Origin: Dactylosporangium sp.
GTDB taxonomy: Bacteria > Actinomycetota > Actinomycetes > Mycobacteriales > Micromonosporaceae
Direction: 5' to 3'
Assembly: GCA_013041765.1 (NCBI GenBank)
Contig: JABDRL010000110.1
Coordinates: forward strand, 1 to 37,310
DNA: 37,310 bases
Below, piece by piece: positions 9,406 to 37,310 of the stretch. Position numbers and translations under genes: made by a program. Position 1 is the stretch's first letter; every line of letters begins with the position of its first letter. The notes beneath the pieces are model-generated. The model made no database searches and was not told the origin of the DNA. It worked only from the letters and a program-made list of their open reading frames with translations.

Positions 9406-10289
9406 CAGGTACTCCTTGTGGTGATCGGGACGCCGGGTACGGCCCGGGGCCCGGGTGTCGGCGGGTCGTAGGGGTCGACCGCACTCGCGAGGGCGGCGGT
9501 GACCGCCCCGCCGTCGAGCGGGTCGGCGGCCACACCCAACGCGGTGAACGCCCGGACGGTGGCCTCCCTGGCGGGGCCGGCCGGCACCACCGTCAGGGCC
9601 TGGCGGCGCAGCGGATCGTGGGTCTGGTCGAGTTCCAGCAGGAATGCGGCGTAGTCGTCGGCTGCCGCGCGCAGCGCCTCGTGCGGTAGCCGGGGCGTGG
9701 CGTCGAGGACCGCCTGCGCGTACGGGGTCAGGTCATGACGTTGGGCGACCACCACGATCTGCGCTGGGCCGGTCAGCGCGTTGAGCCATTGCCCGAACCC
9801 GGCCAGCAGCGCCCCCTGTTCCTGCCCGGTGCGCAGTGCGACGTTGGTGGTGCCGCAGGCGATCATGGTGCAGGCGGCGCCGTCGACGGTCAGCGTGCCG
9901 TCGGCGGCGATGGTCGTGACCGGGGTCCGCAGCGGCGCCGGTGGCCTCGGCGGCCCGGTCGTCGCGACCAGCGGCTGCCCGCTGCGGGCGGCGCCGGGGG
10001 TTTGCAGCTTTGCCACCCGCCGCAGCGCGAGGCCGTGGCGCAGCCATAGGTCCAGCGGCAGCCCGTCGCGGCGGCCGAGGGCGACGACCACGGTCACCCC
10101 GGCGATCGGGATGGCGGCGATCACCCAGGCGATCGGGGGTAGCAGCGGCCCGAAGCGGGTGTAGGCCAGCCAGCCGGCGGCGGCAACCGTGCCGATGATG
10201 GCGAGCTGGCGAAAGGTCAAACCCCAGGCGATCTTGTCGGGAGTTCCGATGTCGGCGGGCACCGAGGCCCTGGGAAGGTCGTCGTCCAT
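9405..10289 (-). CDS. PrgI-family T4SS membrane protein
   Basis: A 294-aa protein. The first 110 residues match the PrgI family: an IGTPDKIAWGLTFRQLAII start, then two membrane helices at about 28-46 and 49-71, then a basic LRHGLALRRVAKL segment. The C-terminal two thirds is an Ala-rich soluble domain of unknown role. PrgI proteins in Gram-positive systems sit between the membrane protein and VirB4, exactly as here. The ATG at 10289 has GAGGAGAG upstream. It ends one base inside the VirB4 start, showing a tight operon. Confidence 0.85.
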   Translation of the reverse strand: MDDDLPRASVPADIGTPDKIAWGLTFRQLAIIGTVAAAGWLAYTRFGPLLPPIAWVIAAIPIAGVTVVVALGRRDGLPLDLWLRHGLALRRVAKLQTPGAARSGQPLVATTGPPRPPAPLRTPVTTIAADGTLTVDGAACTMIACGTTNVALRTGQEQGALLAGFGQWLNALTGPAQIVVVAQRHDLTPYAQAVLDATPRLPHEALRAAADDYAAFLLELDQTHDPLRRQALTVVPAGPAREATVRAFTALGVAADPLDGGAVTAALASAVDPYDPPTPGPRAVPGVPITTRST

Positions 10290-10316
10290 GGCAGCTCTCC
10301 TCGTCAGGACAGGTGA

Positions 10317-11228
10317 TCAGCGGCGGCCGACCGGGATCCGCAGCCGGCGGGTGATCGACTGGACAACCACGGCGCGCAGCACCAGCCCGGCGCTGGACAT
10401 CTGGCCGCCTCGGGTGACGTAGCGGGCGACCAGCTTCGGGATGTGCACGGTCACCCACAGCAGGCAGGCGGCGATGAACAGGTTGAAGGTGTCGGTGCTC
10501 GCCGTGGTCGGCCCGGTGCCCAGCAGCAGGATCTGCACGTTGCGGTCCGGGTCGAGCAGCAGCTCCACACCGGTGGAGAAGAAGATCGCTTGCAGGACCG
10601 GGGTGGCCACGCAGCCCAGCAGCGCCCGCCACCACAGCGCGGCAGCGGCCTGGGTCTGCGGAAGGGCGTGGCAGGCCAGCGCGACCGGCGCGACGCCAGC
10701 GAGGACGATCAGCGTGGCGATGCGGGCGAACCAGCCGACCAGCAGCATGTAGAACAGCACGACGATCAGCAGTCCGATCACCACAGCGAGCAGACCTGCG
10801 GTCGGATCGCGCATCGCCGAGACGATGCGGTCCTGGACGAACCCGACGACCTTCGTTCCCGACGCGGTCTTGCCGACCATGGCGGTCATGAGGGCGTTGG
10901 CCGTCTCGGTGAGCATCTGACACAGCTCGACGCCGAAGTTGGCGATGACGAAGCCGAACACCAGTCGCGGCAGCAGGTCTTTGGCCTGGTATCGGATCTG
11001 GAAGGTGCCGTGCCCCATGGCGATGGCCCCAGCGGCGATGATCGCCAGTACGAACGCGGCGTTGACCACCACGACCGAGCGGTCCACCAGAGCCTGGACC
11101 TGCGGGAAGCCGGTGACGTCCGGGGAGGTGAAGAACGTGGCGGTCAGGAACGAGACCAGCCCGCCGAGCATGCCGGTGACATGCTTGGCGAGCCAGTCGA
11201 TCAGGCCGTTGTACAGCCAGTCGGTCAT
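10317..11228 (-). CDS. VirB6/TrbL-like polytopic channel protein
   Basis: A 303-aa protein with about five or six hydrophobic segments, including VVVNAAFVLAIIAAGAIAMG, LLAVVIGLLIVVLFYMLLVG and LIVLAGVAPVALACHALP. The layout (short amphipathic start, several helices, conserved AGVAPVALACHALPQT, basic C-terminus ending in RR) fits the VirB6/TrbL class of inner channel proteins. It lies between the pilin and PrgI genes on the same strand with gaps of 12 and 27 bp. The ribosome-binding site is weak, so coupling to the pilin gene is likely. Confidence 0.8.
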   Translation of the reverse strand: MTDWLYNGLIDWLAKHVTGMLGGLVSFLTATFFTSPDVTGFPQVQALVDRSVVVVNAAFVLAIIAAGAIAMGHGTFQIRYQAKDLLPRLVFGFVIANFGVELCQMLTETANALMTAMVGKTASGTKVVGFVQDRIVSAMRDPTAGLLAVVIGLLIVVLFYMLLVGWFARIATLIVLAGVAPVALACHALPQTQAAAALWWRALLGCVATPVLQAIFFSTGVELLLDPDRNVQILLLGTGPTTASTDTFNLFIAACLLWVTVHIPKLVARYVTRGGQMSSAGLVLRAVVVQSITRRLRIPVGRR

Positions 11229-11240
11229 GACGGTGGCCCG

Positions 11241-11543
11241 TCAGCCGCCGAGGATGTCCTGCAGCACCTGCAGGATCACCGGGGCGAGCACCGCCAGGGC
11301 GTAGCCCGCGAGGGCCGCCTTGAAGTTGCCCTTGGCCTGTTCGGCCTGGGCCGGGTCTCCCCCGGCGGTCATGTACCGCAGACCCCCGATGACGAGGAAC
11401 AGGGTGGCCACGGCCGCCAGGATTCCCATGATCCACAACTTGAGGCCGTCGATGACCTCGGGAATGGTCTTCGCCGCCAGGACATCCGGCGCCGGTGCGC
11501 CGAGCAGGTCCCCAGCGACGGAGACGATGGTGTACGCGTGCAT
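11241..11543 (-). CDS. VirB2-like T4SS pilin subunit
   Basis: A 100-aa small hydrophobic protein with two membrane segments: LWIMGILAAVATLFLVIGGL at about 36-55 and ALAGYALAVLAPVILQVLQD at about 77-96. They are separated by a polar loop with MTAGGDPAQAEQAKGNFKAA. This two-helix layout and position at the head of the operon fit VirB2/TrbC-type pilins of Gram-positive conjugation systems. The ATG at 11543 has GGAG about eight bases upstream. A cleaved leader is not evident. Confidence 0.8.
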   Translation of the reverse strand: MHAYTIVSVAGDLLGAPAPDVLAAKTIPEVIDGLKLWIMGILAAVATLFLVIGGLRYMTAGGDPAQAEQAKGNFKAALAGYALAVLAPVILQVLQDILGG

Positions 11544-11957
11544 GAGCGCATCTCCACGGGGCTCGTGGGACCGCCTCGGCGGGAAAGGCTCGGGCGTGCT
11601 GGCCGGTGGGGGCGCTCCTCCCTACGTCGTGTGCGAAGGTTGGTGGTCAGTACGCCGTACCGGATCGCGGCCAGTCGCCCGAGGCCGTGCATCCCGCCGG
11701 GGCGGGCATGCCATCAGCGGCATGCACCCGCCCAGACCGCCGCTGTCAGCCCCCACGAACTCCCCGGCAAGCTGACCGAAGCTGACAGCAGCTAACGCCG
11801 CAGCTCACGATGCAGACGTCGTCGGCAGGATCGGAATCCGCTTGGCTGGGATGACCCCTGTCCGCAGGGCCGAGCCGCACGAATTGTCCGACCCCAATAC
11901 CGCCAGCGTGGTAATTCATTTGTCTGTATTGCTGTGCTCAATAGGGTGGTTTCGATC
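11544..11957. promoter_or_regulatory. Divergent spacer between transfer operon and pentapeptide gene
   Basis: This 414-bp gap must hold the promoter of the leftward transfer operon and of the rightward pentapeptide gene. It contains a palindrome GCATGCC (11706-11712) with GGCATGC (11719-11725), a CTGTCAG at 11743 and a CTGACAG at 11782. The last 80 bp before the pentapeptide gene are clearly less GC-rich than the surroundings, as expected for a promoter. I cannot assign -35 and -10 boxes with confidence. Confidence 0.5.
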
Positions 11958-13043
11958 GTGCGTCGCCAGTCCGGTCGGCAACGTCGGCCGTCCAGGGTAC
12001 GGCCCCGTTCCCTGTTGCTGCACGTGTCGGTCCTGTTGGCGCTCAGCGCCACCTGTGCCGCCGGTCTGGGCGCAGCGCTCTGGCTGGTGCTGGGCCGGCC
12101 GGTCCTGGCGGTCCGGCAGAGCCGAGCGACACCGGCGCCTACCTCGGCGACCGGCGCGGCGGTCTCTGGCGTGCCGGTCCTCAGCACCGGCGAGCGGTTG
12201 GAGAGCCTGAAGCTGGTCCTCGCGACCGTTGGTGGGATCGGAGCTGTGGTGGCACTGACCGTGGCCTATCGCAGGCAGCGCGACAGCGAGATCGCCGAAC
12301 ACCGCGAGGACACCCGCCTGTTCACCGATCGTTTCGGCCATGCAGCCGACCAGCTCGGCAGCGCCCAGGCCGCCGTAAGAGTCGCTGGCGTCTACGCCAT
12401 GGCGGAGCTGGCTGACGACTGGAACGAGGGCCGCCAGATGTGCATCGACGTCCTGTGCGCCTATCTCCGTATGCCCTACGATCCCGACCAGCACCGCGAA
12501 GGCGACCGAGAAGTGCGCCGCACGACCGTGCGGGTCATCCGCAATCACCTGCGCCCGGGCTGGAGCGCCGTCAGCTGGAGCACCAACCGGTTTAGCTTCG
12601 AAGGTGCGGTGTTCGACTGTGGTGATCTCTCCGGTGCGCGCTTCCTCGCCCCTGGCAGCGTTTCCTTCCACGCCGCCACGTTCGCCAGCGGAAGCTTCGA
12701 GTTCAACAGGGTTGTGTTCGCCGCACCGACCTGGTTCACCCGGGTCCGATTCGCCGGGGCAAAGATCGGCTTCAACGAGGTCCAGTTCGCGACCGACGAG
12801 ATCCAGTTCGACGATGCGATATTTTCCGCCGGCATCGTCGATTTCCGCCATGCCCGTGTTCCATCTGGCCAGATCACCTTCGCTGAGGTGACGGTCCTGC
12901 CGACAGCGGCGGTCGAATGGGGGCCGTTTCTGCCGATTCCTACTAGTCCCGAGGCCGCTGCGGCAACCAGCCACAGCCAGTCACGCGGCGTCAGGCTTCC
13001 CAGTCCGCGCCGATCGCGTCGACAGAGAAGAAACGCACGATGA
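11958..13043 (+). CDS. Membrane-anchored pentapeptide-repeat protein
   Basis: About 361 aa. A basic N-terminus leads into a first membrane helix (LLLHVSVLLALSATCAAGLGAALWLVLG) and a second near residues 80-95 (LVLATVGGIGAVVALTVAY). A cytoplasmic helical segment follows (LFTDRFGHAADQLGSAQAAVRVAGVYAMAELA). The C-terminal half has pentapeptide-like repeats with central Phe every five residues (FEGAVFDCGDLSGARFLAPG and on), which form a right-handed beta helix. Such actinobacterial proteins have no proven function; DNA mimicry as in MfpA/Qnr is known for other pentapeptide proteins but not shown here. The GTG at 11958 follows AGGGTGG; GTGs at 11934 and 11946 are alternatives. Confidence 0.8.
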   Translation: MRRQSGRQRRPSRVRPRSLLLHVSVLLALSATCAAGLGAALWLVLGRPVLAVRQSRATPAPTSATGAAVSGVPVLSTGERLESLKLVLATVGGIGAVVALTVAYRRQRDSEIAEHREDTRLFTDRFGHAADQLGSAQAAVRVAGVYAMAELADDWNEGRQMCIDVLCAYLRMPYDPDQHREGDREVRRTTVRVIRNHLRPGWSAVSWSTNRFSFEGAVFDCGDLSGARFLAPGSVSFHAATFASGSFEFNRVVFAAPTWFTRVRFAGAKIGFNEVQFATDEIQFDDAIFSAGIVDFRHARVPSGQITFAEVTVLPTAAVEWGPFLPIPTSPEAAAATSHSQSRGVRLPSPRRSRRQRRNAR

Positions 13044-24101: not shown

Positions 24102-25040
24102 TCAGCAACTGTGGAGCGCGGCGATGATCTCCTGTTCGGCGCCCCGGACAGCGAGTATGAGGTCGTCCAGCAGCTGCGGTGGCACGGTGGTGCCGAGGCT
24201 GGCTGCTCGTACGGTTTCGCGCAGTACGGATGCGCTGTGCTCAGCGAGCGGGAGTTGGCCGCCGAGCGCGAGGATGTCCTGGGCGGCGTAGGCGTCGGCC
24301 GCTTCGACGACGATCCGCTCGATCGTCCGGCCGATCGACCGGAGATCACGGGCGTCACTGGTGAGACTGGCGGCGGTGAGACCGAGCCGGATGTGGAACA
24401 CCGTGTGGCCGGGGTCGGGCTCCAGCCGCAGGTACGCCTCCCGCATGGCTGCGGTCTCCGACAAGGCTGGTTGTCCAGCCCAGGTACGGCAGAGGACCGT
24501 CAGGCACGCGGCGACTGTCTGCTCCCACACGGTGGAAGCCGTCGTGGTGTCGATGAGGCGGAGCGCCTCGGCGTGGTCTCCGACAGCGCTGTGGGCCACG
24601 ATCGCGATCTGGCGACCGTCGAACAGCCGCTCACCGATGCCGCGATGCTGCTCGGCCTGTGCGAGCACTTCAGACCACCGACCGGCACGGCAGCGGGCGC
24701 GGAGGCCGTCGGCGAGCAGGACGGTCCAGAGCCACTGAACGACGGCCTGGTGATCGTCACCGGATCGCACGACCCTCGCGAGGTCGACCTCTCGACCGTC
24801 GATGCTGGCCGTGGTCAGCGCCTTCGCAGCCTGGAACATCGAATGGTGCACCCGGTACGCGGCATTGCCGTGGCCGTCGCGGGTGTGTAGTCGTCCGAGA
24901 TTGATCAGGGGTTGGAGGGCAAGCTTCGCGGTGGCCTGCTCGTACGGGCCGGCGGTGGCAAAGGCGTCGAACTGGCGCCAGCACAGCTCGCGGGCGGAGT
25001 CGGGCATCGCGCAGTCGGAGAGGATCAGCGCGGCGAGGTT
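24102..25040 (-). pseudogene. Distal fragment of the split lanthipeptide-operon gene
   Basis: This open frame encodes the last 312 residues of a helical-repeat, TPR-like protein (NLAALILSDCAMPDSAREL at the junction, later LALQPLINLGRLHTRDGHG, VVQWLWTVLLADGLRARCRA and AVGDHAEALRLID). An ATG at 25007 is available but has no convincing ribosome-binding site, and coding-like sequence continues upstream of it to the transposon edge at 25041. The missing N-terminus is at 31,196-31,000 beyond the transposon. The intact protein would have about 376 residues. It was probably a cytoplasmic accessory protein of lanthipeptide biosynthesis; I recall similar proteins near FxLD-type clusters but cannot verify this here. 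Confidence 0.8.
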
Positions 25041-25086
25041 GAACTGTTGGTAAGAAACATGTCACCAGCCGCAACCGGAGATGGTC
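25041..25086 (+). repeat. Left terminal inverted repeat
   Basis: Begins GAACTGTTGGTAAGAA; from 25043 it matches the right repeat over 44 bp with six mismatches. The invariant inner block is TGTCACCAGCCGCAA (25060-25074). Confidence 0.85.
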
Positions 25087-25128
25087 GTGCCGGCCATCAT
25101 GAGGAGCCGATCGGCTCGCGAAAACGGT

Positions 25129-26196
25129 CTACACGAGTCTGCGCTCAAGCGCTCTGAGGCTGTCGTTCATCTGCGTGATCTCATGTCCAAGACTGCTGCC
25201 GAACCTAGACGACCGCAGTTCGCCAGCTACTTCGCCCAGAATCGTTGTATTTTTTTCGTGCTGTCGAGCGACAGCGTCGACAATCATCGCGTTTCCCGAA
25301 CGGATAGTGTCCCCTAGACGGTCTACTGCGTCTTGAAGCGAAGAGAAACCGGAGATTACTGCAGCCGTCGTTCGGCGTTGCTCGTATATGGATGCGAACT
25401 GAAAGTCGGTTTGGGCCTCATAGACCGTTTTTCTGAAGCGATCAGCGACTGCCCCTCCGGCGCGTGATCGTCCGATTTCAGTGAATCCGGTCGGGATCGG
25501 CTCTGCCGTAACATGCCCCAGCTCGGGAGTATCCCGAAGCCGTTCTCGTAGTGACTCGTGCCGACGAATGACGGCAAGAAGCCTCTCCGCGCTGAGTCGG
25601 TACTCGTTGAGCGCCCCGAGGCCGATTTCGACCGTTTCCCAGAACGGCGTATACGCCGACCTGCGTTGGTGTTTGACCGCCAACTCCAACTTCGTAGTAG
25701 CGGTCTCCAACTGCACGAGGGTGGCGCGATAGTGCTCGGCAACGAGGCGGGGCGAGGAAACAACATCGTTTTGCAGTGCTTTCAGCTCCTCCGTCCTGCG
25801 AGCCTGTTCTCGTGTCGCTTGCTCGCGTTCCCGCTGTATTTCGGCCATCCGTGCGCGCTCCTGCGCCTCGGCGGCGTGGCGGTTTATCTTGTGCGACCAG
25901 ATCATCCGGTTCACCAGAAAAGCTACGAACGGAGTCGCGATGCCGAGGATGGCGCCGATGCAGACCCAGACAAACGATGCCTTAAACCATGCGTTATCTG
26001 CGGGATCCGGGACGTCAATGAATGCGCTGGCAACCGAATACAGAAACCGTATCGGTTGTCTCATCTCCTGCAGTGGACCCTTTTCTTGTGCCATCATGAA
26101 GGATGCCATGAAACCGACTACGAAAGAGCCAACCCCTGCAGCTACACCCATCTCCTCCAGCATCGGAAATCCAGGCTTCTGGGATGCGTTTTTCAT
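25129..26196 (-). CDS. Transposon cargo: two-helix membrane protein with coiled coil
   Basis: A 355-aa protein not recognised. Two hydrophobic segments lie near residues 17-35 (GVAAGVGSFVVGFMASFMM) and 69-92 (ASFVWVCIGAILGIATPFVAFLV). A long charged coiled coil follows at about 100-135 (AAEAQERARMAEIQREREQA). The rest is helical and cytoplasmic, ending SLGHEITQMNDSLRALERRL. The ATG at 26196 has only GAGG close upstream; the longer frame to 26316 overlaps the neighbouring gene. Base composition and codon use are far less GC-rich than the host DNA. It lies 62 bp behind the other cargo gene, so the two form an operon of unknown role. Confidence 0.75.
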   Translation of the reverse strand: MKNASQKPGFPMLEEMGVAAGVGSFVVGFMASFMMAQEKGPLQEMRQPIRFLYSVASAFIDVPDPADNAWFKASFVWVCIGAILGIATPFVAFLVNRMIWSHKINRHAAEAQERARMAEIQREREQATREQARRTEELKALQNDVVSSPRLVAEHYRATLVQLETATTKLELAVKHQRRSAYTPFWETVEIGLGALNEYRLSAERLLAVIRRHESLRERLRDTPELGHVTAEPIPTGFTEIGRSRAGGAVADRFRKTVYEAQTDFQFASIYEQRRTTAAVISGFSSLQDAVDRLGDTIRSGNAMIVDAVARQHEKNTTILGEVAGELRSSRFGSSLGHEITQMNDSLRALERRLV

Positions 26197-26258
26197 GGGA
26201 CCTCGATACGGATGGGGTGGGGGGATAAGGTGCAGTTGCTGAAGCTTACTCAGCAAGC

Positions 26259-26972
26259 TCAGTAGTTTTGCTTCGCGATAACCTTGCCAACTGGCGTGTC
26301 GGGGCTCTGGCCGCATTCGTAGTCAACGTTCAGTCGAGCCATGGGATTTCCGGCCCCAGTGGCACCCTTCTCAACACCAATGGTCTTTACGGCATGATCG
26401 CGATCTTCCGTCGAGGCTTTGAGGTAGTCTCGGCAGGAGGTATTCTCGGTGATTGTTGCCGAGTTGACCGTATTGCGAACCCACACAACAATTTTCGTCG
26501 CACCCCAGCCGAGAGCTAGCACTACTGCGATAACAGCTATGACCGCAAGCGGCCCTCCGTAGCTCGTACGTTTGTTTTTGGTATTGGTGTTGTTGATGTC
26601 TCGACCGGCTTGGTTGATCCGTGCGCGATTTCCAGCGGAAATCTGCTGCACGGTTGTCTGCTGAGAGTCAGATCGACCGATCTTCTCGATGAGATCCTCC
26701 AAACGAACGGCGGCCTCGGGCTGGTTTTCTAGTAGAGTTTCGAGTCGCCCCTGCCAGCGGCCGGCCGCCACGGCAGCCTCCACGTGGCCTGCGCGTATCG
26801 CGTCACGTGTCTCGCTCAACTGTCCGGCTACTTGGCGTTCGCGCTCCGAGTCGCCGCCGCTAAAGATTTGTGCGATCCTGTCGCGAAAAGCGACCCAGCT
26901 GTCCGTGGCCATGGCTTGCACGACGGCCTTTCCGGCTGCCGCCGCCAGTGCAGTGAGTGCCGCATCCAACAT
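26259..26972 (-). CDS. Transposon cargo: single-pass membrane protein with amyloid-like motif
   Basis: A 237-aa protein. Residues 1-95 are helical (LDAALTALAAAAGKAVVQA and on). The section GNRARINQAGRDINNTN at about 125-141 resembles Gly/Asn-rich beta motifs in actinobacterial conflict proteins, some of which act as amyloid-like signalling motifs. A membrane helix follows (LAVIAVIAVVLALGWGATKIVVWV). The outside domain of about 70 residues has two Cys (TSCRDYLKAS and DYECGQSP), reminiscent of HdeA-like folds. The ATG at 26972 follows GAAGGAGA. It is lower in GC than the host. Function is unknown; a sensor/partner role with the downstream gene is inferred only from adjacency. Confidence 0.75.
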   Translation of the reverse strand: MLDAALTALAAAAGKAVVQAMATDSWVAFRDRIAQIFSGGDSERERQVAGQLSETRDAIRAGHVEAAVAAGRWQGRLETLLENQPEAAVRLEDLIEKIGRSDSQQTTVQQISAGNRARINQAGRDINNTNTKNKRTSYGGPLAVIAVIAVVLALGWGATKIVVWVRNTVNSATITENTSCRDYLKASTEDRDHAVKTIGVEKGATGAGNPMARLNVDYECGQSPDTPVGKVIAKQNY

Positions 26973-27047
26973 ATCCGAATCTCCTTCATCAGCACCGGCG
27001 TCGGGCAATGAGTGCCGCCCGACAAGGAAAACGAATGGCGACAGGAA

Positions 27048-27077
27048 AAGTTCCGAATGTCGTCGAAGTCGGAACTT
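27048..27077. repeat. Inverted repeat, candidate recombinase site
   Basis: Two 9-bp arms, AAGTTCCGA and TCGGAACTT, flank a 12-nt spacer. Tyrosine-recombinase core sites have this general form (paired inverted arms around a crossover region), though the usual spacer is 6-8 nt, so an operator is equally possible. Confidence 0.4.
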
Positions 27078-27136
27078 CCCGCCATGATCGCCACGACGAC
27101 GTCGCAGCTCACGGGTGTGATCGTCGATCATGATCG

Positions 27137-27165
27137 GAGAGGGAACCGGCGAAGTTCCCTCTCCC
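27137..27165. terminator. 11-bp hairpin upstream of transposase
   Basis: GGAGAGGGAAC (27137-27147) pairs with GTTCCCTCTCC (27155-27165) around a 7-nt loop. It could stop read-through into the transposase or act as an operator. Confidence 0.5.
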
Positions 27166-27211
27166 GTGGTCAATCCGGAGCTTCGGCCGGGATCGGCTCG
27201 TTGGACCGGGT

Positions 27212-27274
27212 ATGGACGCCCACGACCGTTTTCCGGATCCTGAGCGGGGTCCGGGCACGAAGCGGCAGCGGTAG
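27212..27274 (+). CDS. Possible 20-codon leader peptide of tnpA
   Basis: ATG at 27212 opens a 20-residue frame (MDAHDRFPDPERGPGTKRQR) whose TAG overlaps the GTG of the transposase by one base. The overlap suggests translational coupling, which is a common way to limit transposase synthesis. Its ribosome-binding site is weak, and chance cannot be ruled out at this length. Confidence 0.3.
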   Translation: MDAHDRFPDPERGPGTKRQR

Positions 27275-30210
27275 TGGCCCGCCGGCTGGAGCTGGACGAG
27301 TTGGTCGACCAGTGGACATTGCTGGACGGCGAGCAGCCGCCGGTGGCGGGCAAGCGGGGTCCGACCCGGCTCGGGTTCGCGGTGCTGTTGAAGTTCGTCA
27401 CCCAGTTCGGCCGGTTCCCCCGCGGGCGCAGCGAACTACCCGACGAGGCGGTGGAGTTCGTCGCCCGGCAGGTCGGGGTACCCGCTGCGGATTTGGGGTT
27501 CTACGAGTGGGTTGGGCGGACGGCCGAGTACCACCGCGCCCAGATCCGTGCGCACCTGGGGTTCCGCGAGTGTTCCGTGGCCGACGCGGACAAGCTCACC
27601 GGGTGGCTGGCTCGGGAGGTGTGCCAGGCCGAGGTGGTCCGCGCGGAGTTGCTGGGCCGTTGCCGGACTGAGCGGATCGAGCCACCGTCGCTGGCGCGGG
27701 TGGACCGGATCCTGCGCTCGGCGCTGTTTCAGGGTGAGCAGGCGCTGACCGCCCGGGTCACCGGGCGCCTGTCACAAGCGAGCGTTACGGCGGTCGAGTT
27801 TCTCGTGGATCCCGACGATCCGGACGGGCCGGCGGCCCTGGCATTGATCAAGTCGGTGCCGGGCAGTGTGAGTCTGGAGTCGATGCTCACCGAGATCCGT
27901 AAGCTCCGCGCGGCCCGCGCGATCGGCCTGCCGCACGACCTGTTCGCGGAGGTGGCGCCGAAGATCCTTGCCGGTTGGCGTACCCGGGCTGCGGTGGAGT
28001 CCCCGTCGCATCTGCGTGATCATCCGCCGCTGCTGCGGCAGACGCTACTGGCGGCTTTGGTGCATACCCGGCTGCGGGAGATCACCGACGCGTTGGTGGA
28101 GTTGCTGATCGCCACGGTGCACCATATCGGCGCCCGCGCCGACCGGCGGGTCACCCAGGAGCTGGTCAACGCGTTCAAGCGGGTGACCGGCGAGGAGCAC
28201 ATTCTGGCCACGATCGCCGAGGTGTGTCTGGGCCGCCCCGACGAGGCGGTCCGCAAGGTCGTCTACCCGGCCGTTGACGGTGGGAAGGCCACGCTGCGGG
28301 AGCTGGTGCACGAGTTCCGCACGAAGGGGCCGGTGTACCGGCACACGGTGCGGGTGACGTTGAAGGCGTCCTACACCAATCACTATCGCCGTGGCCTGGT
28401 CGGCCTGCTGGACGTGCTGGAGTTTCGCTCCAACAACACCGCCCACCAGCCGGTCGTCGACGCCCTCGCGGTGATCAGACGGCACGCGGGCACGGCTGGG
28501 TTGACCTACTACCCGGTCGATGAGCAGGTGCCGACGCATCACGGGATCACCGCTGACTGGCAGCCGCTGGTCTACAAGGAAGGGAGGAAGGGCCGCCGTC
28601 GGGTGGTTCGGGGGGTGTATGAGATGTGCACCTTCCAGGCGTTGCGGGACCGGCTGCGCTGCAAGGAGGTCTGGGTGGTCGGCGCCGACTCGTGGCGTAA
28701 CCCCGACGAGGACCTCCCGCAGGATTTCGAGGCCCGCCGGGTCGAGCACTACGCCAAGCTCCGCAAATCCCTGGACCCCACCGACTTCATCGACGAGCAC
28801 CGGGCAGCGCTTGTCGCGTTCAACGAGGCCCTCCCCGATCTTGACTGGGTGCAGATCGCCGACCGGGGCAAGCGCGGGGCGATCAAACTCACCCCGCTGG
28901 ACGCGGTCCCCGAACCGCGCAACCTGCGCCGGTTGAAGCGGGAGGTCGCCGACCGGTGGGGCACGGTCCCGCTGATCGACATGCTCAAGGAGGCGGTGCT
29001 GCGCACCGGCTGCCTGGCCACGATCACCTCCGCCGCCACCCGCGGCGACCTCCCGGCAGAGGTCCTGGTGGAGCGGCTGCTGCTGGCGATCTACGCCTAC
29101 GGCACCAACACCGGCATCCGTGCTGTGGCCGCCGGCGAGCACGGCCACAGCGAGGACGACATCCGGTACGTCCGCCGCCGCTACCTCACCCCCGACCTGG
29201 TATGGGCGATGGCCATCGACATCGCCAATGCCACCTTCGCTGCCCGCCAGCAGCACATCTGGGGTACCGGATCCACCGCCGTCGCCTCCGACTCCACCCA
29301 CGTCGGCGCGTGGGACGAGAACCTGCTCACCGAATGGCACTCGCGCTACCACGGCCGGGGCGTGTTCATCTACTGGCACGTCGAACGACGCTCCATGGTG
29401 ATCCACTCCCAACTGCTGCGCTGCTCCGCCTCCGAGGTCGCCGCGATGGTCGAAGGCGCCATGCGCCACCAGACCAGCATGGACGTGCAGGCCAACTACG
29501 TTGACAGCCACGGCCAGTCCGAGATCGGCTTCGGCATCACCCGGCTGCTGGTCTTCGACCTGCTACCACGCATCAAACAGATCAACAAGGTCAAGCTGTA
29601 CCTACCCGCAGCCGGGGAACGCGACGCCTACCCCAACCTGGCCGCAGCGCTAACCCGCCCGATCCGGTGGGACATCATCGCCGACCAGTACGACCAGATG
29701 ATCAAATACGCGACCGCGATCCGCACCGGCTCGGCCTCGACCGAGGCGATCCTGCGCCGGTTCGCCAAGGCCAACGCCATCCACCCCACCTACCATGCCA
29801 TGATCGAAGTCGGGCGAGCGCAGAAGACCCTGTTCGTCGCCCGCTACCTACGCGACCGGGACCTACAGCGGGAGATCAACGCCGGCCTCAACGTCGTGGA
29901 GTCCTTCAACGGCGCCAACGCCGTCATCCACTTCGGCAAAGGCGGCGACATCGCCACCAACCGCCGCGAGGAGCAGGAACTGGCCGTGCTGTGCCTGCGC
30001 GTGCTGCACGCCGCGATGGTCTACATCAACACCCTGATGCTCCAGGACGTCCTCGCCGAAGACGCCTGGATGAAGCTGCTGACACCCGAGGCCCAGCGCG
30101 GGCTGACCCCGCTGTTCTGGAGCAACGTCGCCCCCTACGGCGAGATCCGCCTCAACATGACCCGCCGCCTGACGCTGCGCACCGACCCACCACGGGAGCG
30201 ACCATCATGA
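27274..30210 (+). CDS. tnpA: Tn3-family transposase
   Basis: A 978-aa protein, the normal length for Tn3 transposases. The N-terminus is the DUF4158 type ([21 protein letters not shown], then [22 protein letters not shown]). The C-terminal DDE domain shows the first Asp in [14 protein letters not shown] (about residue 672), the second in [13 protein letters not shown] (about 744) and the Glu in [14 protein letters not shown] (about 876), so it looks intact. It performs replicative strand transfer at the element ends. The GTG at 27274 is the first start after an in-frame stop and has no clear ribosome-binding site. It overlaps the recombinase gene by 4 bp. Confidence 0.92.
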
Positions 30211-30944
30211 CCGTCGACACGGCCGAGACCGACCCAGCCGCACCGGCGCGGACCGCGGCCCGCCGCAAAGCCCGCGAGCTGGCCAAATACCTGCGCGGCG
30301 AGCGCCCCGACTACTCCTACCTCAAAGACGTCTTCCGCCACCTACGTGCTGAGCTCGACATCGAAGTCGCCCGCGCCCCGAAACGCCTGCCGTACGTGCC
30401 CACCGAGGCCGAGTTGCGCGCCTTCTACCAAGCGGTCTGGCAAGCCCGCCGCACCAGCGACATCATCCTCATCCGCACCCTGCTCTACACCGGCGTGCGC
30501 GTCTCCGAACTCGTCCGCATCCGCTGCGACGACGTCGACCTCGACGCCTGCCGCATCCACATCATCTGCGGCAAAGGCGGCAAAGACCGCTACGTGCCCT
30601 TCCCCCGCCCGTTCGCCGAGACCCTCGCCCTGCACATCGACGCCCAACGCCGAGCCGGCGCCAGCCACCTGTTCGAATCCTCCTGGAAGAAGCCCTACAC
30701 CGACCGCGGCGTCCGCAAGATCCTCACCCGGTACACCCAAGCCGCCGGCATCACCGCCTCGATCAGCCCTCACACCCTGCGGCACTTCCTGTTCACCTGG
30801 CTCAAGACCCAGGGCATCGACGACGCCCTCATCCAGCCCTACTCCGGCCACAAGACCCGCCAGTCCCTGGAGATCTACTCCCGACTCGCCCTCGCCGACG
30901 CCCAAACCACCTATGACCAGGTCATCAACCGGTTCCCAGTCTGA
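30207..30944 (+). CDS. Tyrosine recombinase, TnpI-like resolvase
   Basis: A 245-aa phage-integrase-type enzyme. Catalytic residues are all present: Arg in [12 protein letters not shown] (about residue 97), Lys in [12 protein letters not shown], the box [12 protein letters not shown] (about 192), His in YSGHKTRQ and the Tyr nucleophile in LEIYSRLA (about 226). In Tn4430-like transposons such a protein resolves cointegrates made by the Tn3 transposase. Here it is downstream of tnpA and coupled by ATGA at 30207. It ends ten bases before the right inverted repeat. A role in host-gene inversion between the inverted ends cannot be excluded. Confidence 0.9.
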
Positions 30945-30954
30945 CCAGCAGAAA

Positions 30955-30999
30955 GATCATCCCCGTTTGCGGCTGGTGACACGGTTCTTACCAGCAGTC
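30955..30999 (-). repeat. Right terminal inverted repeat
   Basis: Read inward on the minus strand it starts GACTGCTGGTAAGAACC. It matches the left repeat over 44 bp (30998-30955) with six mismatches. It supplies a chance stop codon (TGA at 30959-30957) to the interrupted host gene. Confidence 0.85.
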
Positions 31000-31196
31000 A
31001 GGTCGTGGGCCTCGGCGGCGCGCAGCAGCGACTCGGCGGTGCGTTGGCTGGCCAGGTCCGCCTGGTGGCGGACCCGGCCGATGCGGTCGATCAACGGCGG
31101 GCAGGCCGGCTTGCGTCGAGGTACCAGCGGGAACCGCTGCGCGGCCAGGTCGCCCAGGCTCCGGTGGACGGTGGTTGTCTCGGCGTTCGTCGTCAT
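31000..31196 (-). pseudogene. Proximal fragment of the split lanthipeptide-operon gene
   Basis: The ATG at 31196 has GGGAGG upstream and encodes 64-65 native residues ending LASQRTAESLLRAAEAHD. Reading then runs into the transposon repeat and stops at 30957, adding about 14 foreign residues. The phase at 31004 equals the phase at 25040, where NLAALILSDC resumes, so the two pieces form one gene of about 376 codons. It follows the methyltransferase gene after 55 bp and would be the fourth gene of the lanthipeptide operon. In the present state only a truncated, probably inactive peptide can be made. Confidence 0.82.
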
Positions 31197-31251: not shown

Positions 31252-33303
31252 TCACCACGTGATGGCGAACGTGGAGTGCGGGCGGACGATGTGCGCCTGA
31301 GCGTCGTCGAGCTGCGGGCTGCGGCCGGCCCTGTAGGCCGTGATGGCGGGCTGGGCCGGCCGTTCGCCGTCCCACTGGTGCAGCAGGTCGACGGTGCGTG
31401 AGATCAGCTTGGTGCTGTCGGGGCCGTGGGCGATGAGGCCGAGTTCCATCGTGTCATCGTTGAGGTCACGGGTGGCCAGGTAGGCCAGGCAGCCGTTGTC
31501 GTAGAGCGCGGCACCGCCCCAGCGGGGCGCGGGGTTGGCCAGGCCGGTCACGCGGGCGGTGGCGCCGACCGACAACCGGCCGAAGCAGTCCACGGTGGTG
31601 GTCAGCAGCCACAGGTCCAGGTGCTCGGCGGGCTCGTCGTGGCGGACCTGGATGCCGGTCCAGTGTTCCTGGTCGGGATGGGTCAACGTGCGTTCCAGGT
31701 CGGGGTGGCCGGGCAGATCCTCGGCGTCGACCTTGAGGACGGCGTCGTCGGCGAGCCGCACGTGCCGTTCGTCGTGTTCGGCCTGCCCGCGCATCGGTAC
31801 GAACCCGCACACCACGGCGGAGGTGCTCACCATGCGGTCGGCCTCGGTCAGGTCGAAGGCGATGGCGCGGGTCAGGCCGCTGCCGTGCAGTCGGATCGGC
31901 ACGACGATCCGGCCGCAGGGGGCCAGTTGCTCCCACCAGCTGCCGACGACGTCCCAGGCTTCGGCGGTGACGATGATGCGGTCGTAGGGGGCGTGCTCCG
32001 GGCGGCCCTGCGCGCCGTCCCCGCAGATGACCTTCACCTGGGGATAGCCGGCGCGGTGGAGGTTCGCTGCGGCACTGGCGGCGAGGTCGGCGTCCAGCTC
32101 GATGGTGACCACGGTGCCGGTCGGGCCGACGAGTTCGGCCAGCAGGGCGGCGTTGATGCCGGTGGCCGCGCCGATCTCCAGCACCCGCTGGCCGGTGCGG
32201 GCGTCGAGTTGTTCGAGCATGGTGGCCACCAGTTTCGGGCTGGAGGCCGATGAGATCGACGTACCGTCGTCGGTGCGGCGGGTGACCACCGGCTTGGTGC
32301 CGTAGGCGATGGCCAGGTCGACGCCGGGCAGGAACAGGTGCCGGGGCACGGTGCGGAACGCGGCCTCGACCTGCGGGGTACGAAAGGTGCCCCACCCTTT
32401 GATGGAGTCGGCGAGGTCGTCGCGGAGCCGTGCGGCGTGATCGGCAGCGTCGGTGGTCACCGTGGTCAGGGTAGCCGTGCCGGTACCGGGCACCGTGCTG
32501 GTCTGGACGCTGCCGGCGCGGTCGGGTGATGGGCCGAACGCGGCCCGACGGGCGGCGGTGGCCAGTAGATACTGGTCGTCGCCGGAGATGCCGTGCCGGT
32601 TGAACAGGAACAGCAGGTGGTGGGCGAGCACCGCACGCAGTCCACGGGTCAGCTGGCCGGCGCCGGCGAGGTCGGCCAGACGGCGACCGGCGTCCTCGAC
32701 CGCGGTGGTCCAGCCGGATACGGTGTGTAGCGGGCTGTCGGGGCGGTCATCGGTGGCGGTGATGAGCTGCCGGACGGCGGCAACCATGGCGGGCGAGGGC
32801 TCCCGCTGCGGCGTGATCGTCCGGTGCTCGGCAAAGCACGCCCAGCAGTCGCCCTGCTCGTAGAGGTCCAGACCTGCGGCCCGCAGCAGCCGTGCGGACA
32901 GGATCACCGCCAGCTCCCGCCGGTAGGTGTGCCGGTCGGCGGCGAGGGAGTCCAGCAGGTACCGGCTGTCGGCCTCGAACACCTCGTGGGTCAGGTCCAT
33001 GCCGGCCGGGCCGCCGAAGGCGTGGGTCTCCGGCTCGTAGATGGTCTCCGTGGCCGCCCGCACCGGCCCGTGCTCGGTGAGTGCGCCGATGGCCTGGTCG
33101 ATGAACGCGTCCGAGACTGCGCGCAGCCGCACCCGCCAGGTGCTGCCTTTGCGGACGAACCACCAGCCACCGATGGCTCCGGCATCCTGCGCGCGGCCCA
33201 GCAGCGGCCGGAGTTCGCTGATGCCCATCTGTTCGGCGGCGGCCCAGTCATCGCAGGTGAGGTTGAGTTGGCGCCACTGGGTGGCCGGGGCCGGGTTGGT
33301 CAT
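31252..33303 (-). CDS. Lanthipeptide isoaspartyl-methyltransferase-like enzyme, FxLD/LanSA type
   Basis: A 683-aa two-part enzyme. Residues 1 to about 260 form a thiopeptide/SpaB C-like domain (GGWWFVRKGSTWRVRLR, then DSRYLLDSLAADRHTYRRELA). From about 310 a protein-L-isoaspartate methyltransferase domain follows, with TSISSASSPKLVATMLEQL, SAM motif VLEIGAATGINAALL (about 374) and YDRIIVTAEAWDVVG (about 439). A C-terminal extension of about 170 residues follows. Relatives in lanthipeptide clusters methylate an Asp of the modified precursor, leading through a succinimide to isoaspartate. The ATG at 33303 follows AAGGAG. It is 31 bp behind lanC. Confidence 0.85.
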   Translation of the reverse strand: MTNPAPATQWRQLNLTCDDWAAAEQMGISELRPLLGRAQDAGAIGGWWFVRKGSTWRVRLRAVSDAFIDQAIGALTEHGPVRAATETIYEPETHAFGGPAGMDLTHEVFEADSRYLLDSLAADRHTYRRELAVILSARLLRAAGLDLYEQGDCWACFAEHRTITPQREPSPAMVAAVRQLITATDDRPDSPLHTVSGWTTAVEDAGRRLADLAGAGQLTRGLRAVLAHHLLFLFNRHGISGDDQYLLATAARRAAFGPSPDRAGSVQTSTVPGTGTATLTTVTTDAADHAARLRDDLADSIKGWGTFRTPQVEAAFRTVPRHLFLPGVDLAIAYGTKPVVTRRTDDGTSISSASSPKLVATMLEQLDARTGQRVLEIGAATGINAALLAELVGPTGTVVTIELDADLAASAAANLHRAGYPQVKVICGDGAQGRPEHAPYDRIIVTAEAWDVVGSWWEQLAPCGRIVVPIRLHGSGLTRAIAFDLTEADRMVSTSAVVCGFVPMRGQAEHDERHVRLADDAVLKVDAEDLPGHPDLERTLTHPDQEHWTGIQVRHDEPAEHLDLWLLTTTVDCFGRLSVGATARVTGLANPAPRWGGAALYDNGCLAYLATRDLNDDTMELGLIAHGPDSTKLISRTVDLLHQWDGERPAQPAITAYRAGRSPQLDDAQAHIVRPHSTFAITW

Positions 33304-33334: not shown

Positions 33335-34594
33335 TCAGTTGATCAGTAGGCAGGTCGGCCACGGGCTGGCTACGCCTCGGGCGATGGTGTGCAAGGTCAG
33401 GGCAACCCCGGCACGCCCCTCGATCAGGCCGACCAGCCGCTCGGGGCCGGTGTCGTCGGCATGGTTGACGAGCGCCCGCAGCAGCTCGGGCAGGTGCCCG
33501 GTCAGGTGTGGCGTGGTGGCGTCGGCGGCGGCGTACCAGGCGGTGACCGCCACCCCGGCCCAGCCGTGGCAGAGGTTGGCATCGCGCAGGCGACCGAGCT
33601 GGACCGCGTCGGCCAGACACCGGTGCAGGGCGTGTTCGGCGGCGGCCTGTCGGCTGTGGTCACCCCGGGTCAGGCCGGCCAGTTGCTGGGCGCGGGCCAG
33701 CCCTGGGGTGCCGTAGCACCAGGACGGTCGGGCCGGTCCCGCCTGGGTCGGGCGCCCGGCACGAAGGTCGGCGAGGGCGATGCGTTCGGGCCACCACGGT
33801 CCGGCCGGGCCGGGTTGGCGCCAGCCGTCGAGCCACCCGCAGATGCGGTCGATGGCCACGGTCTGGCCGGGCACGGTGATGCCGCGTCGCAGGGCGAGGG
33901 CCAGCAGCGCCAGAGGACCGGCGATGCCGTGGGCCATGCCCTGGTCGGCGTGGCCGCCGCGTACCTGCGGATGGCCGGAGGGTGGGTCGGCGGTCCACCA
34001 GCCCGGTGCGCCGGTGCCGGCTTCGTCGGGCGCCGGGACTGGTTCGGTGAGCCGGATGAGATAGGCGAGCACGTCTCGGATCTGGCCCCCGTCGGGGTGG
34101 TGGGCCAGGATGTGCGCGCCGAGTCCGGTCAGGCCACGGACCAGGTCGAACTCCGACAGGGACGGGCGGGCCGCCGCGGCGATGCGCTCGTGGGCGGCCT
34201 CCAGCCGCCGCTGGATCAGCCGAGTCACGGCGGCGTCGAGCGTGGCCCGGGTCTGCCGGTAGCCGCCCGGGGCGCAGGTGCCCAGGGCGAAGGCGACCGC
34301 CGGGGCGCCGAACCACAGGCCCGCGCCGGGGCCGGCACTGAGGTCTTCGCTGACCGCGCGGGCCAGCCAGTCATGTACCTGGCGGTCGTGGCCGTGGCCG
34401 GTCTGGGTGCGGACGGCGTGCAGGATCGCCACCCCGGCGGCGCCCTTGGACAGCGACTGGTGCCGCCAGCGCGGGCTGCTGGGGCTGTGGTCGCCGTCGT
34501 CGTTGACCGGGGCCGGGGCGGTCAGCTCGTCGCAGAGGTCGGCGGCGGCGGTCGTCGCATCGGATACCGGGAGGCGCTGCTCGCTGAGGATCAT
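33335..34594 (-). CDS. lanC: Lanthionine synthetase C-like cyclase
   Basis: A 419-aa LanC-family protein that should add Cys thiols to dehydrated residues, making lanthionine rings. Zinc-site motifs are complete: HGIAGPLALLAL near residue 219, the Cys of SWCYGTPGLARA near 291 and the Cys-His of LCHGWAGVAV near 341. The length matches the family. The ATG overlaps the LanB stop by 4 bp, so dehydratase and cyclase are co-translated. The cytoplasmic enzyme acts on the same leader-bound precursor as LanB. Confidence 0.9.
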   Translation of the reverse strand: MILSEQRLPVSDATTAAADLCDELTAPAPVNDDGDHSPSSPRWRHQSLSKGAAGVAILHAVRTQTGHGHDRQVHDWLARAVSEDLSAGPGAGLWFGAPAVAFALGTCAPGGYRQTRATLDAAVTRLIQRRLEAAHERIAAAARPSLSEFDLVRGLTGLGAHILAHHPDGGQIRDVLAYLIRLTEPVPAPDEAGTGAPGWWTADPPSGHPQVRGGHADQGMAHGIAGPLALLALALRRGITVPGQTVAIDRICGWLDGWRQPGPAGPWWPERIALADLRAGRPTQAGPARPSWCYGTPGLARAQQLAGLTRGDHSRQAAAEHALHRCLADAVQLGRLRDANLCHGWAGVAVTAWYAAADATTPHLTGHLPELLRALVNHADDTGPERLVGLIEGRAGVALTLHTIARGVASPWPTCLLIN

Positions 34595-37310
34595 GTCCGG
34601 GGTGCCTTCGCGGTGTGGTGGCGGGCGTTGTGGGCGAGCGCGACGGCACGGGCCAGCTTGTAGGTGCGGGCCTCGGTGGCGGCATCAGCGCTGTGTGCCC
34701 GGTTGTGGTGCAGGTGCAGCAGGGACACCGCGACCGCCGCCGGCCGTGGACCGCCCTCGGGCAGCGTGCCCGCGTACGCGTTCGCCGCCTGGCGGCGGGC
34801 CTGCCAGCTCGGCGTAAGCAGTGCCCCACCGGGCCGGCTCGCCGTGTCGCGGCCATCGGTTCCGGAGGCGGCCAGGTCGAGGGTCTGTCGCAGCACGGCC
34901 CGGTCACTGGCCCCGGCACGACCGGCGATGTCGGGGTGCTCCAGCAGCCACCGCACCGCCGTGGCCTGGTCGCCGAGCAGACCGGCGAGCAGGTCGATCA
35001 GGCTGGCCGCCGTCAACGCATCCGGATGTACCTGCCCGGTGGTGGTCGCGGTGAGCTGCGCGACGGCCGCCGCCGAGTCGGCCGCGAACAGTTCCTCGAC
35101 GGCGACCCGCGCGGCGCCGCCGCCGTAGCGGGCGATCTCCGGCCGGTAGGTGTCCAGGGTCAGCTCACCGACCAGGCCGGCCCGGCGCAGGCCGCTCGCC
35201 CAGGCGCCGACCCGTTCGGCGTCGCGGCCGTAGCCGTCGGTGCGGATCCGCAGGCGAAGGTGCGGCGCGGGGTCGTGGTAGCGCACGAACCACCACACCG
35301 GCGGGGTGTCCCATGCGGCCAGCAGCGCCGGCAGGTGCGCGGTGAGGACGGTGTCGGAGGTCTCGGCGGGGCCGTACAGCTTGGCCGACAGCATCGTCGA
35401 GCCCGGCAGGTGCCCATGTTCGGCGTCGACGAGCGGTAGCGGTCCTTCGCGGCGTAGTACCGCAGGTGCCGGCAGCGATGGTGTGGTCGCCGCGAGCGGG
35501 ATGACGACCTCGTGCGCGCGGCCGTCGAACCAGCCGTACTCGGCCGGGTCGGGGGCCTCGGTGAGCGTGACCGCGTCCCCGGCGCCGTCCAGGTGGGTAC
35601 GCAGCAGCGTCAGCCCCATGGGGTCGTCCAGGCACAACCGCAGGCGCCGGTCGGCGGTACCGACCGAGACCCAGGACGGGAGGCACAGCCGCTCCCGAAG
35701 CCGCTGGGCGGCGCCTGTCCACGCTGCCCATCCGGCCATCTGACCGGGCAACGCCCCCGGCGGGATTCGCCAGCAGGCCGGGGCCAGGATGGAGCGCCGG
35801 TAGCGCAGGCGGGGCCGGAACGGCAGGCACGCGGCCGTACCCCAGTCGAACACCGTCAGCGGCGCGCTGGTGGCGCTCGGGATCTCCACCAGCAGCCGGG
35901 CGAGGGCGGGCATGGTGTGCCAGGCCGCCGCGCAGGCCAGCACCGGCTCGACCACCCGTCGCCGCGACAGCGACACCAGGTAGCAGCGGTCGGAGTCGGC
36001 AGTGACGGCGAGGTCGTCCAGCACGATGCGGTCGCCGGCTCGATCACGGTGCTCGGCCAGCGAGACCACCGCCGGCAGCACCTGCGGGACCCGGGTGACG
36101 TTCTCGACCCGAGGATGATGCGGGGGGAACGAGATCTGGGCGACCAGCGCCGCGTCCACCCGGGTCGGCAGGCTGCCCATCCGCCGCCGGTCGGCATCGG
36201 GCAGCAGGTCGAGGAACCGGCCGCTGGTCGCGAGCGCGCTGCGGCCGACACCGGTCACCGCCAGGGTGAAGTACCCGGCCTCCAGCGCGGCCGTGGTGGC
36301 GGCACGCACCTCGACGGTCACGTCCAGATGTGGTGCCGGCCGCAGTTCGCCGCACGACTCGCCCGCCAGGACGTCGACGGCACTGTCGTCGAGCACCACC
36401 TCCTGGGTGCCGTCGAGTGCCGCCTGCTGAGCCAGCGCCAGCAGGCGTTCATCCCGACCCGACCGCTGCGGAACGTGGCCGAAGCGGTCCGGGTGGGCGG
36501 TGTGGCGCGGGAAGCCGAGGCCGGCGACCGGATCCACGAGCTGGCTGACGGGCACCAGCGCACCGCCGCCGAAGCGGTCCAGGAACCGCGCGTGGTACTC
36601 CCGCCACGCCGCTGTGCCCGCCGGAGCCGGGCTCAGCCGCAGCAAGGTTTCGGCGGCTGTGGCGGCTTCCACCGCGACCGGCGGTGGAAGGACCAGGGAG
36701 CAATCCATCCGCAGGTCGACGGCGAGCGGTTGGACGGCGGTACGGTCCGGGGTCCGCATCCGGGCCGTCACGACAGCAGCACGTCCACCCACCGCTGGCC
36801 GGGGACAGGCCGCGAGCTGCCGATGGATGACGCGAAGCTCGCCGACCATCGCAGCGACCTCGGCGGCGTCGGCGGCGTTCACCTCGTCCAGCGCGTCGAG
36901 GACGTGGCCGAGACCGTCGACCGTCGTGGATGGCGGTCGCAGATTCGTGATCAACGCGCCGCACGTCACCAGCTCGGTGACCATCGCCTCGACGGCTTCC
37001 GCGGAGGCATGGGGGAATTCGGCGGCGAGCTTGCCAAGCAGGTCGGCAACCGCTACCGGAGCATCGGCGGTCCGCAGGACCAGCGCGACCGGCGGCGTAT
37101 GCCGCAGCGACACCTCCACCGGCGCAGACCGGGCGGGATCACCGGCGTGCGGCTGCCACCGTACCCACAGCCTGACCCCACGCACCTCGATCAGATCGTT
37201 GGCAACCACCCGCAGCCGGCGCAGCAACGGCCGGCACGCCTCCAGTTGGGCGACCATCCCGGCCAGCCACACCCCGTCGGCGCGGGCACGCACGTGATGG
37301 GCGCCGGTCC
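34591..37310 (-). CDS. lanB: LanB-type lantibiotic dehydratase, 5' end outside window
   Basis: At least 905 codons, open to the right edge. The visible part begins within the N-terminal glutamylation domain, matching text that normally follows the TPFGLFAGV motif (VWLAGMVAQLE, then LRVVANDLIEVRG and ALITNLRPPSTTVDGLGHVL), so about 120-150 residues are missing. The GTG at 37293 is therefore not the real start. The C-terminal elimination domain is clear (STMLSAKLYGPAETSDTVL, WWFVRYHDPAPHLRLRIR near residue 668). It dehydrates Ser/Thr of the precursor using glutamyl-tRNA. First gene seen of the leftward operon; the precursor gene should lie upstream, out of view. Confidence 0.9.
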   Translation of the reverse strand, partial: TGAHHVRARADGVWLAGMVAQLEACRPLLRRLRVVANDLIEVRGVRLWVRWQPHAGDPARSAPVEVSLRHTPPVALVLRTADAPVAVADLLGKLAAEFPHASAEAVEAMVTELVTCGALITNLRPPSTTVDGLGHVLDALDEVNAADAAEVAAMVGELRVIHRQLAACPRPAVGGRAAVVTARMRTPDRTAVQPLAVDLRMDCSLVLPPPVAVEAATAAETLLRLSPAPAGTAAWREYHARFLDRFGGGALVPVSQLVDPVAGLGFPRHTAHPDRFGHVPQRSGRDERLLALAQQAALDGTQEVVLDDSAVDVLAGESCGELRPAPHLDVTVEVRAATTAALEAGYFTLAVTGVGRSALATSGRFLDLLPDADRRRMGSLPTRVDAALVAQISFPPHHPRVENVTRVPQVLPAVVSLAEHRDRAGDRIVLDDLAVTADSDRCYLVSLSRRRVVEPVLACAAAWHTMPALARLLVEIPSATSAPLTVFDWGTAACLPFRPRLRYRRSILAPACWRIPPGALPGQMAGWAAWTGAAQRLRERLCLPSWVSVGTADRRLRLCLDDPMGLTLLRTHLDGAGDAVTLTEAPDPAEYGWFDGRAHEVVIPLAATTPSLPAPAVLRREGPLPLVDAEHGHLPGSTMLSAKLYGPAETSDTVLTAHLPALLAAWDTPPVWWFVRYHDPAPHLRLRIRTDGYGRDAERVGAWASGLRRAGLVGELTLDTYRPEIARYGGGAARVAVEELFAADSAAAVAQLTATTTGQVHPDALTAASLIDLLAGLLGDQATAVRWLLEHPDIAGRAGASDRAVLRQTLDLAASGTDGRDTASRPGGALLTPSWQARRQAANAYAGTLPEGGPRPAAVAVSLLHLHHNRAHSADAATEARTYKLARAVALAHNARHHTAKAPRT

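Follow-up and report, generated by a model that had tools for sequence, protein, structure and literature searches.

A Tn3-family transposon splits the accessory gene of a class I FxLD-type lanthipeptide operon in Dactylosporangium sp.

Background

Members of the Tn3 transposon family encode a DDE transposase of about 950-1000 amino acids, are bounded by inverted repeats of some 38 bp and duplicate 5 bp of the target; a site-specific recombinase acting at its own site resolves their co-integrates. Insertional inactivation of genes by members of this family is commonplace. TPR domains, such as those of LGN, NprR and Rap, bind peptides or proteins.

Among class I lanthipeptide clusters, families I 1-4 combine a PF01135 methyltransferase with a conserved core Asp, according to the FxLD-related passages of Walker et al. 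2020 (PMC7268733), where elimination domains fused to PCMT proteins are also described. A solenoid protein is not mentioned in these passages, and looking in the literature for TPR proteins in FxLD clusters returned nothing specific.

In this study, we analyzed a 37,310-nt stretch of DNA from Dactylosporangium sp. (the window), which is the whole of one contig (C26; JABDRL010000110.1) of a 5.19-Mb, 434-contig assembly. An earlier note on this DNA had proposed that a transposon of about 5.96 kb splits a single gene, which follows lanB, lanC and the methyltransferase as the fourth of the operon. Homology of the spliced frame and synteny bear this proposal out. The operon is of the class I, FxLD type, and its last gene was very probably hit at codon 65 by a Tn3-family element of this size, with a target duplication of 5-6 bp. 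Coordinates of the features are given in Table 1.

Table 1. Predicted features of the operon and of the inserted element in the window
Feature	Position	Strand	Remarks
LanB lantibiotic dehydratase	34591..37310	-	Runs off contig; PF04738 560 bits; PF14028 142 bits; TIGR03891
LanC-like cyclase	33335..34594	-	Intact; PF05147 118 bits
Fused LanB elimination-like domain and FxLD-system PCMT-type methyltransferase	31252..33303	-	Intact; TIGR04364 446 bits (cut-off 320); TIGR03891 164 bits
Interrupted accessory gene, 5' fragment (codons 1-65)	31002..31196	-	ATG at 31196; homologues matched independently
Right target-site repeat copy AGGTC (or AGGTCG, 31000-31005)	31000..31004	.	Mutated copy
Right terminal inverted repeat	30955..30998	.	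44 nt, 86% complementary to 25043-25086
Tyrosine recombinase, TnpI-like, 245 aa	30207..30944	+	PF00589 101 bits; ATG overlaps tnpA stop (ATGA)
tnpA, Tn3-family transposase, 978 aa	27274..30210	+	Open throughout; NF033527 719 bits (cut-off 500); PF01526 391 bits; PF13700 82 bits
Cargo gene 1, hypothetical membrane-type protein	26259..26972	-	No Pfam, NCBIfam or PADLOC match
Cargo gene 2, hypothetical protein	25129..26316	-	Start codon uncertain; ORF; no family match
Left terminal inverted repeat	25043..25086	.	44 nt, 86% complementary to right repeat
Left target-site repeat copy AGGTT (or AGGTTG, 25036-25041)	25036..25040	.	Minus strand retains ancestral AAC codon
Interrupted accessory gene, 3' fragment (codons 65-376)	24102..25040	-	No stop or frameshift

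Results

Two fragments of one gene

The 5' fragment is native as far as ...LLRAAEAH-D at 31002, beyond which the frame continues within the inverted repeat as far as a stop at 30957. The 3' fragment opens with N (codon 25040-25038), continues as NLAALILSDC... and ends at 24102. Removal in silico of 25041-30999 together with one copy of the short repeat gave a single minus-strand frame of exactly 376 amino acids, for which the earlier note had given about 376 codons; its coordinates, codons, near-duplicate repeat and frame were all recovered when the sequence was re-read and spliced.

Homologues of the spliced protein occur in 70 of the 301 Micromonosporaceae genomes searched (best identity 52%), a tally that takes in the window's own genome, whose two matches are its own halves, and three weak matches. 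A contig scan with the 3' fragment alone as query gave zero matches; an alignment-based scan of GTDB species genomes later confirmed 391 relatives. The closest of these, in a Pseudonocardiales bin, is 59% identical over residues 4-373. Homologues borne on plasmids carry the annotation 'hypothetical protein'.

One reading frame crosses the junction in all 80 homologue loci inspected; in none of the 80 were the two pieces found as separate proteins, an arrangement that the earlier note had named as speaking against a single gene. Nearly all of these loci have homologues of LanB, LanC and the FxLD methyltransferase upstream of the gene and in the same orientation (L069, L104 and a few that are cut by contig ends are without some of the partners). 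The same neighborhood surrounds the gene in 12 of 12 further 20-kb regions, in some of which the methyltransferase is encoded apart from the elimination-like domain, at another place in the cluster.

The sequence around the cut is conserved as well. The cut falls exactly on the codon of Asn65, an invariant residue in an alignment of 25 proteins, and in near relatives the stretch AEAHNLAALI.SDC runs gap-free over the junction. Separate searches with the 5' piece (64 aa) and the 3' piece (312 aa) against every ORF of the 80 homologue loci picked out one and the same set of 55 ORFs (E<1e-3), in which the two pieces are offset by -2 to +3 residues. Because the 80 homologues are each one ORF and both pieces independently find the same 55 ORFs, the in-frame join can be placed far beyond chance. 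Each piece is an open frame by itself, as it would be if two separate genes flanked the element and joined in frame by coincidence; this reading is refuted by the intact homologues, in which the two matched segments abut within 3 residues, and the head of the 3' piece is without a start codon and ribosome site, so that we regard it as wildly improbable. The split of one gene by the transposon is thus confirmed as a real break.

Strongly conserved columns are retained in both pieces: 9 of 10 in the 5' piece, where the sole miss is the start Met and reflects an alignment-end effect, and 50 of 52 in the 3' piece. Since nearly all such columns are kept, the insertion is probably young. The check for an empty site within the genus covered one other genome, which has no homologue. 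Two further accessory-gene homologues appear to be broken, one by an internal stop (G270:C102:65337-66206) and one into two pieces in different frames (G126:C12:351307-352339), and the gene may therefore be lost repeatedly.

The inserted element

On the plus strand, the target sequence is nearly duplicated, with AGGTT and AGGTC agreeing at 4 of 5 positions, or AGGTTG and AGGTCG at 5 of 6; the 6-bp reading leaves the inverted repeats ungapped. Given the invariance of Asn65 in the 25 proteins, N can be assigned as the ancestral residue 65, and the right copy (GAC, D) as the mutated one. The terminal inverted repeats are the longest inverted-repeat pair in the region.

The insert belongs to the Tn3 family of transposons and carries four genes: tnpA, the tyrosine recombinase gene that overlaps it, and two of cargo. 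The NF033527 match spans residues 8-960 of TnpA, and the tyrosine recombinase is likely to be the resolvase of the transposon. The cargo has a G+C content of 57.5% versus 68-74% in the surroundings. Membrane segments and a coiled coil are predicted, on reading the sequence, in the product of cargo gene 2. Relatives of cargo gene 1 occur in 55 of 201 family genomes, mostly alike in just one half of the protein. The cargo genes and the recombinase had zero matches among defence-system models (PADLOC).

The transposon occurs once, with no further copy in the assembly. Weak matches to the sequence beside its right end on two other contigs (C215 and C183; 82-86% over about 40 bases) were judged to be chance. 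With 434 contigs, 94% completeness and 5% contamination, the assembly may be a metagenome bin, and the interruption might then come from a misjoin or from a mixture of strains, some with the insert. We consider such an assembly or binning artefact very unlikely: matched inverted repeats and the near-duplicate target stand at the same codon on both ends of an element that is single in the assembly, a structure that a misjoin would not give.

The lanthipeptide operon and a second cluster

Class I FxLD-type clusters are marked by LanB, LanC, an FxLD-system methyltransferase and a precursor peptide with an FxLD leader; the first three are present in the window, and the operon is assigned to this type. 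The first approximately 119 residues of LanB were not found anywhere in the assembly, and neither was a precursor gene for this cluster; the contig ends within LanB, short of the region upstream of it. Candidate FxLD-type precursors were found in 62 of the 80 homologue loci by a motif scan that admits some chance ORFs. Six near homologues (L057, L058, L059, L062, L066 and L070) have in common an unusual two-cysteine precursor core, TD(D/N)(G/N)CDT....(D/N)C, which is also the likely product type of the window cluster. The interrupted gene is the last of the operon, and the next gene downstream (end 23963) is on the opposite strand; a polar effect on the core enzymes is therefore not expected.

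The same genome contains a second FxLD cluster (locus L051, G000:C332:2000-21990, at about 5900-12800), in the order methyltransferase, precursor, LanB, LanC and a separate elimination-like domain. Its precursor ends TDDNCGSTCPNACVSEAGSI.

No solenoid gene of the kind interrupted in the window was found in this second cluster. Across the family, an FxLD methyltransferase scores above the cut-off in 136 of 301 genomes and the accessory gene is present in at most 70 of 301. From these two observations, not all FxLD chemistry requires the accessory protein. Both also favor a reading in which the insertion is real but functionally silent, which is taken up below.

A predicted TPR-like solenoid

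The intact homologue with 59% identity was modelled with AlphaFold2 from 61 sequences, at a mean pLDDT of 95. The model forms an alpha-solenoid of antiparallel helix pairs and is all helical except for one hairpin. The Asn at the junction aligns with N68 of the modelled protein, within the helix of residues 59-76. Its best structural neighbors are the TPR domains of LGN, NprR and Rap, with Z of 12-13; among helical-repeat proteins, a Z near 13 is suggestive and not decisive. A Foldseek search gave zero matches below E 0.001. Pfam TPR models match weakly in 14 of 25 family members, with no curated family model, TPR or other, above its cut-off; the best TPR match for the spliced protein is TPR_7 at 14.9 bits (cut-off 27.9). 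Overall, the confident model points to a TPR-like alpha-solenoid as the product that the cut gene would have encoded.

Discussion

Consequences of the insertion

These data support the following course of events. A replicative transposon of the Tn3 family landed in the operon's final gene, at codon 65, duplicating 5-6 bp of target. The native protein is predicted to be a 376-aa TPR-like alpha-solenoid encoded beside LanB, LanC and PCMT in actinobacteria. Because the cut falls within a helix near the N-terminus, neither half would be expected to fold natively. From the 5' part, a short peptide continuing into the repeat would be expected, and the 3' part seems to lack a good start, its first ATG being at 25007 with no evident ribosome site. 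The frames visible for LanB, LanC and the methyltransferase stay open; with the element behind them, in the final gene, they should still be expressed.

We infer that the strain would be without the function of the solenoid and that its peptide product may thereby be changed. The most likely reason for such a change would be that the solenoid holds the leader peptide or gathers the enzymes, and loss of an accessory step is plausible, so that the earlier note's proposal of an altered product, or none, is a reasonable one. The competing reading is that the insertion is functionally silent, either with the whole protein dispensable or with the 3' piece (301 aa from ATG 25007) sufficient. In addition to the second cluster and the genome counts, the absence of stops and frameshifts from the 3' piece and its retention of 50 of 52 strongly conserved columns speak for this reading, although the intactness of the 3' piece may merely reflect a young insertion. 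Ten strongly conserved columns fall within the N-terminal 64 residues, and the sequence ahead of 25007 showed neither a ribosome site nor one resembling a promoter. We consider a silent insertion somewhat unlikely.

The mechanism of insertion is ordinary and of a familiar kind. The interest of the locus is modest and lies in a natural knock-out of a conserved, unstudied partner protein that is annotated only as hypothetical. In automatic annotation, the two pieces would pass for small proteins with no relation to each other, and the damage to the operon would be overlooked. The intact homologues define a conserved 'hypothetical protein' family linked with a large group of class I lanthipeptide clusters, which makes the strain convenient for comparing operons with and without the gene. 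As a tentative and rather doubtful extension, the family might be one, so far undescribed, of peptide-binding solenoids that are fixed partners of LanB-LanC-PCMT in actinobacteria and steer residue modification, with this strain as a natural knock-out and its second cluster running without such a protein.

Comparison with known systems

The FxLD clusters in the passages cited above from Walker et al. 2020 (PMC7268733) have LanB, LanC and an elimination-like domain fused to a PF01135 methyltransferase, as in the window; in the window, the accessory gene is interrupted and the contig does not reach the precursor gene. RRNPP-type and LGN-type TPR proteins have an alpha-solenoid fold in common with the modelled intact homologue (Z 12-13), whereas sequence identity is only 6-12% and a DNA-binding domain is absent.

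The transposon can be compared with Tn3-family elements of actinobacteria (Streptomyces and Nocardia plasmids, and Micromonosporaceae genomes), whose TnpA proteins are 60-75% identical to that of the window and whose inverted-repeat core, GGTAAGAAACGTGTCACCAGCCGCAA, is nearly identical. Five of these relatives, examined by eye, have perfect 5-bp target repeats, whereas the repeat in the window is imperfect, at 4/5 or 5/6. The ends differ too. All inspected relatives end GGGGTG, and the outermost bases of the window element (25041-25050 and 30990-31000) read GAACTG on the left and (T)GACTG on the right, so that neither end has the outer GGGG. As the transposase and the repeat core match the family, the missing terminus is best classed as a deviation within Tn3, and the ACTG variant, being common to both ends, was probably present before the element moved.

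The gene that overlaps tnpA in the window has no counterpart beside tnpA in these actinobacterial relatives. A Tn3-family element of Deinococcus radiodurans pCP1 does have this arrangement, tnpA followed by an overlapping integrase gene, and its recombinase is 69% identical to that of the window; its TnpA is only 43% identical, and its ends differ. Since the two proteins stand at such different distances from pCP1, and the nearest TnpA relatives are without the recombinase, the window transposon looks like a mosaic in which the recombinase and transposase modules have different histories.
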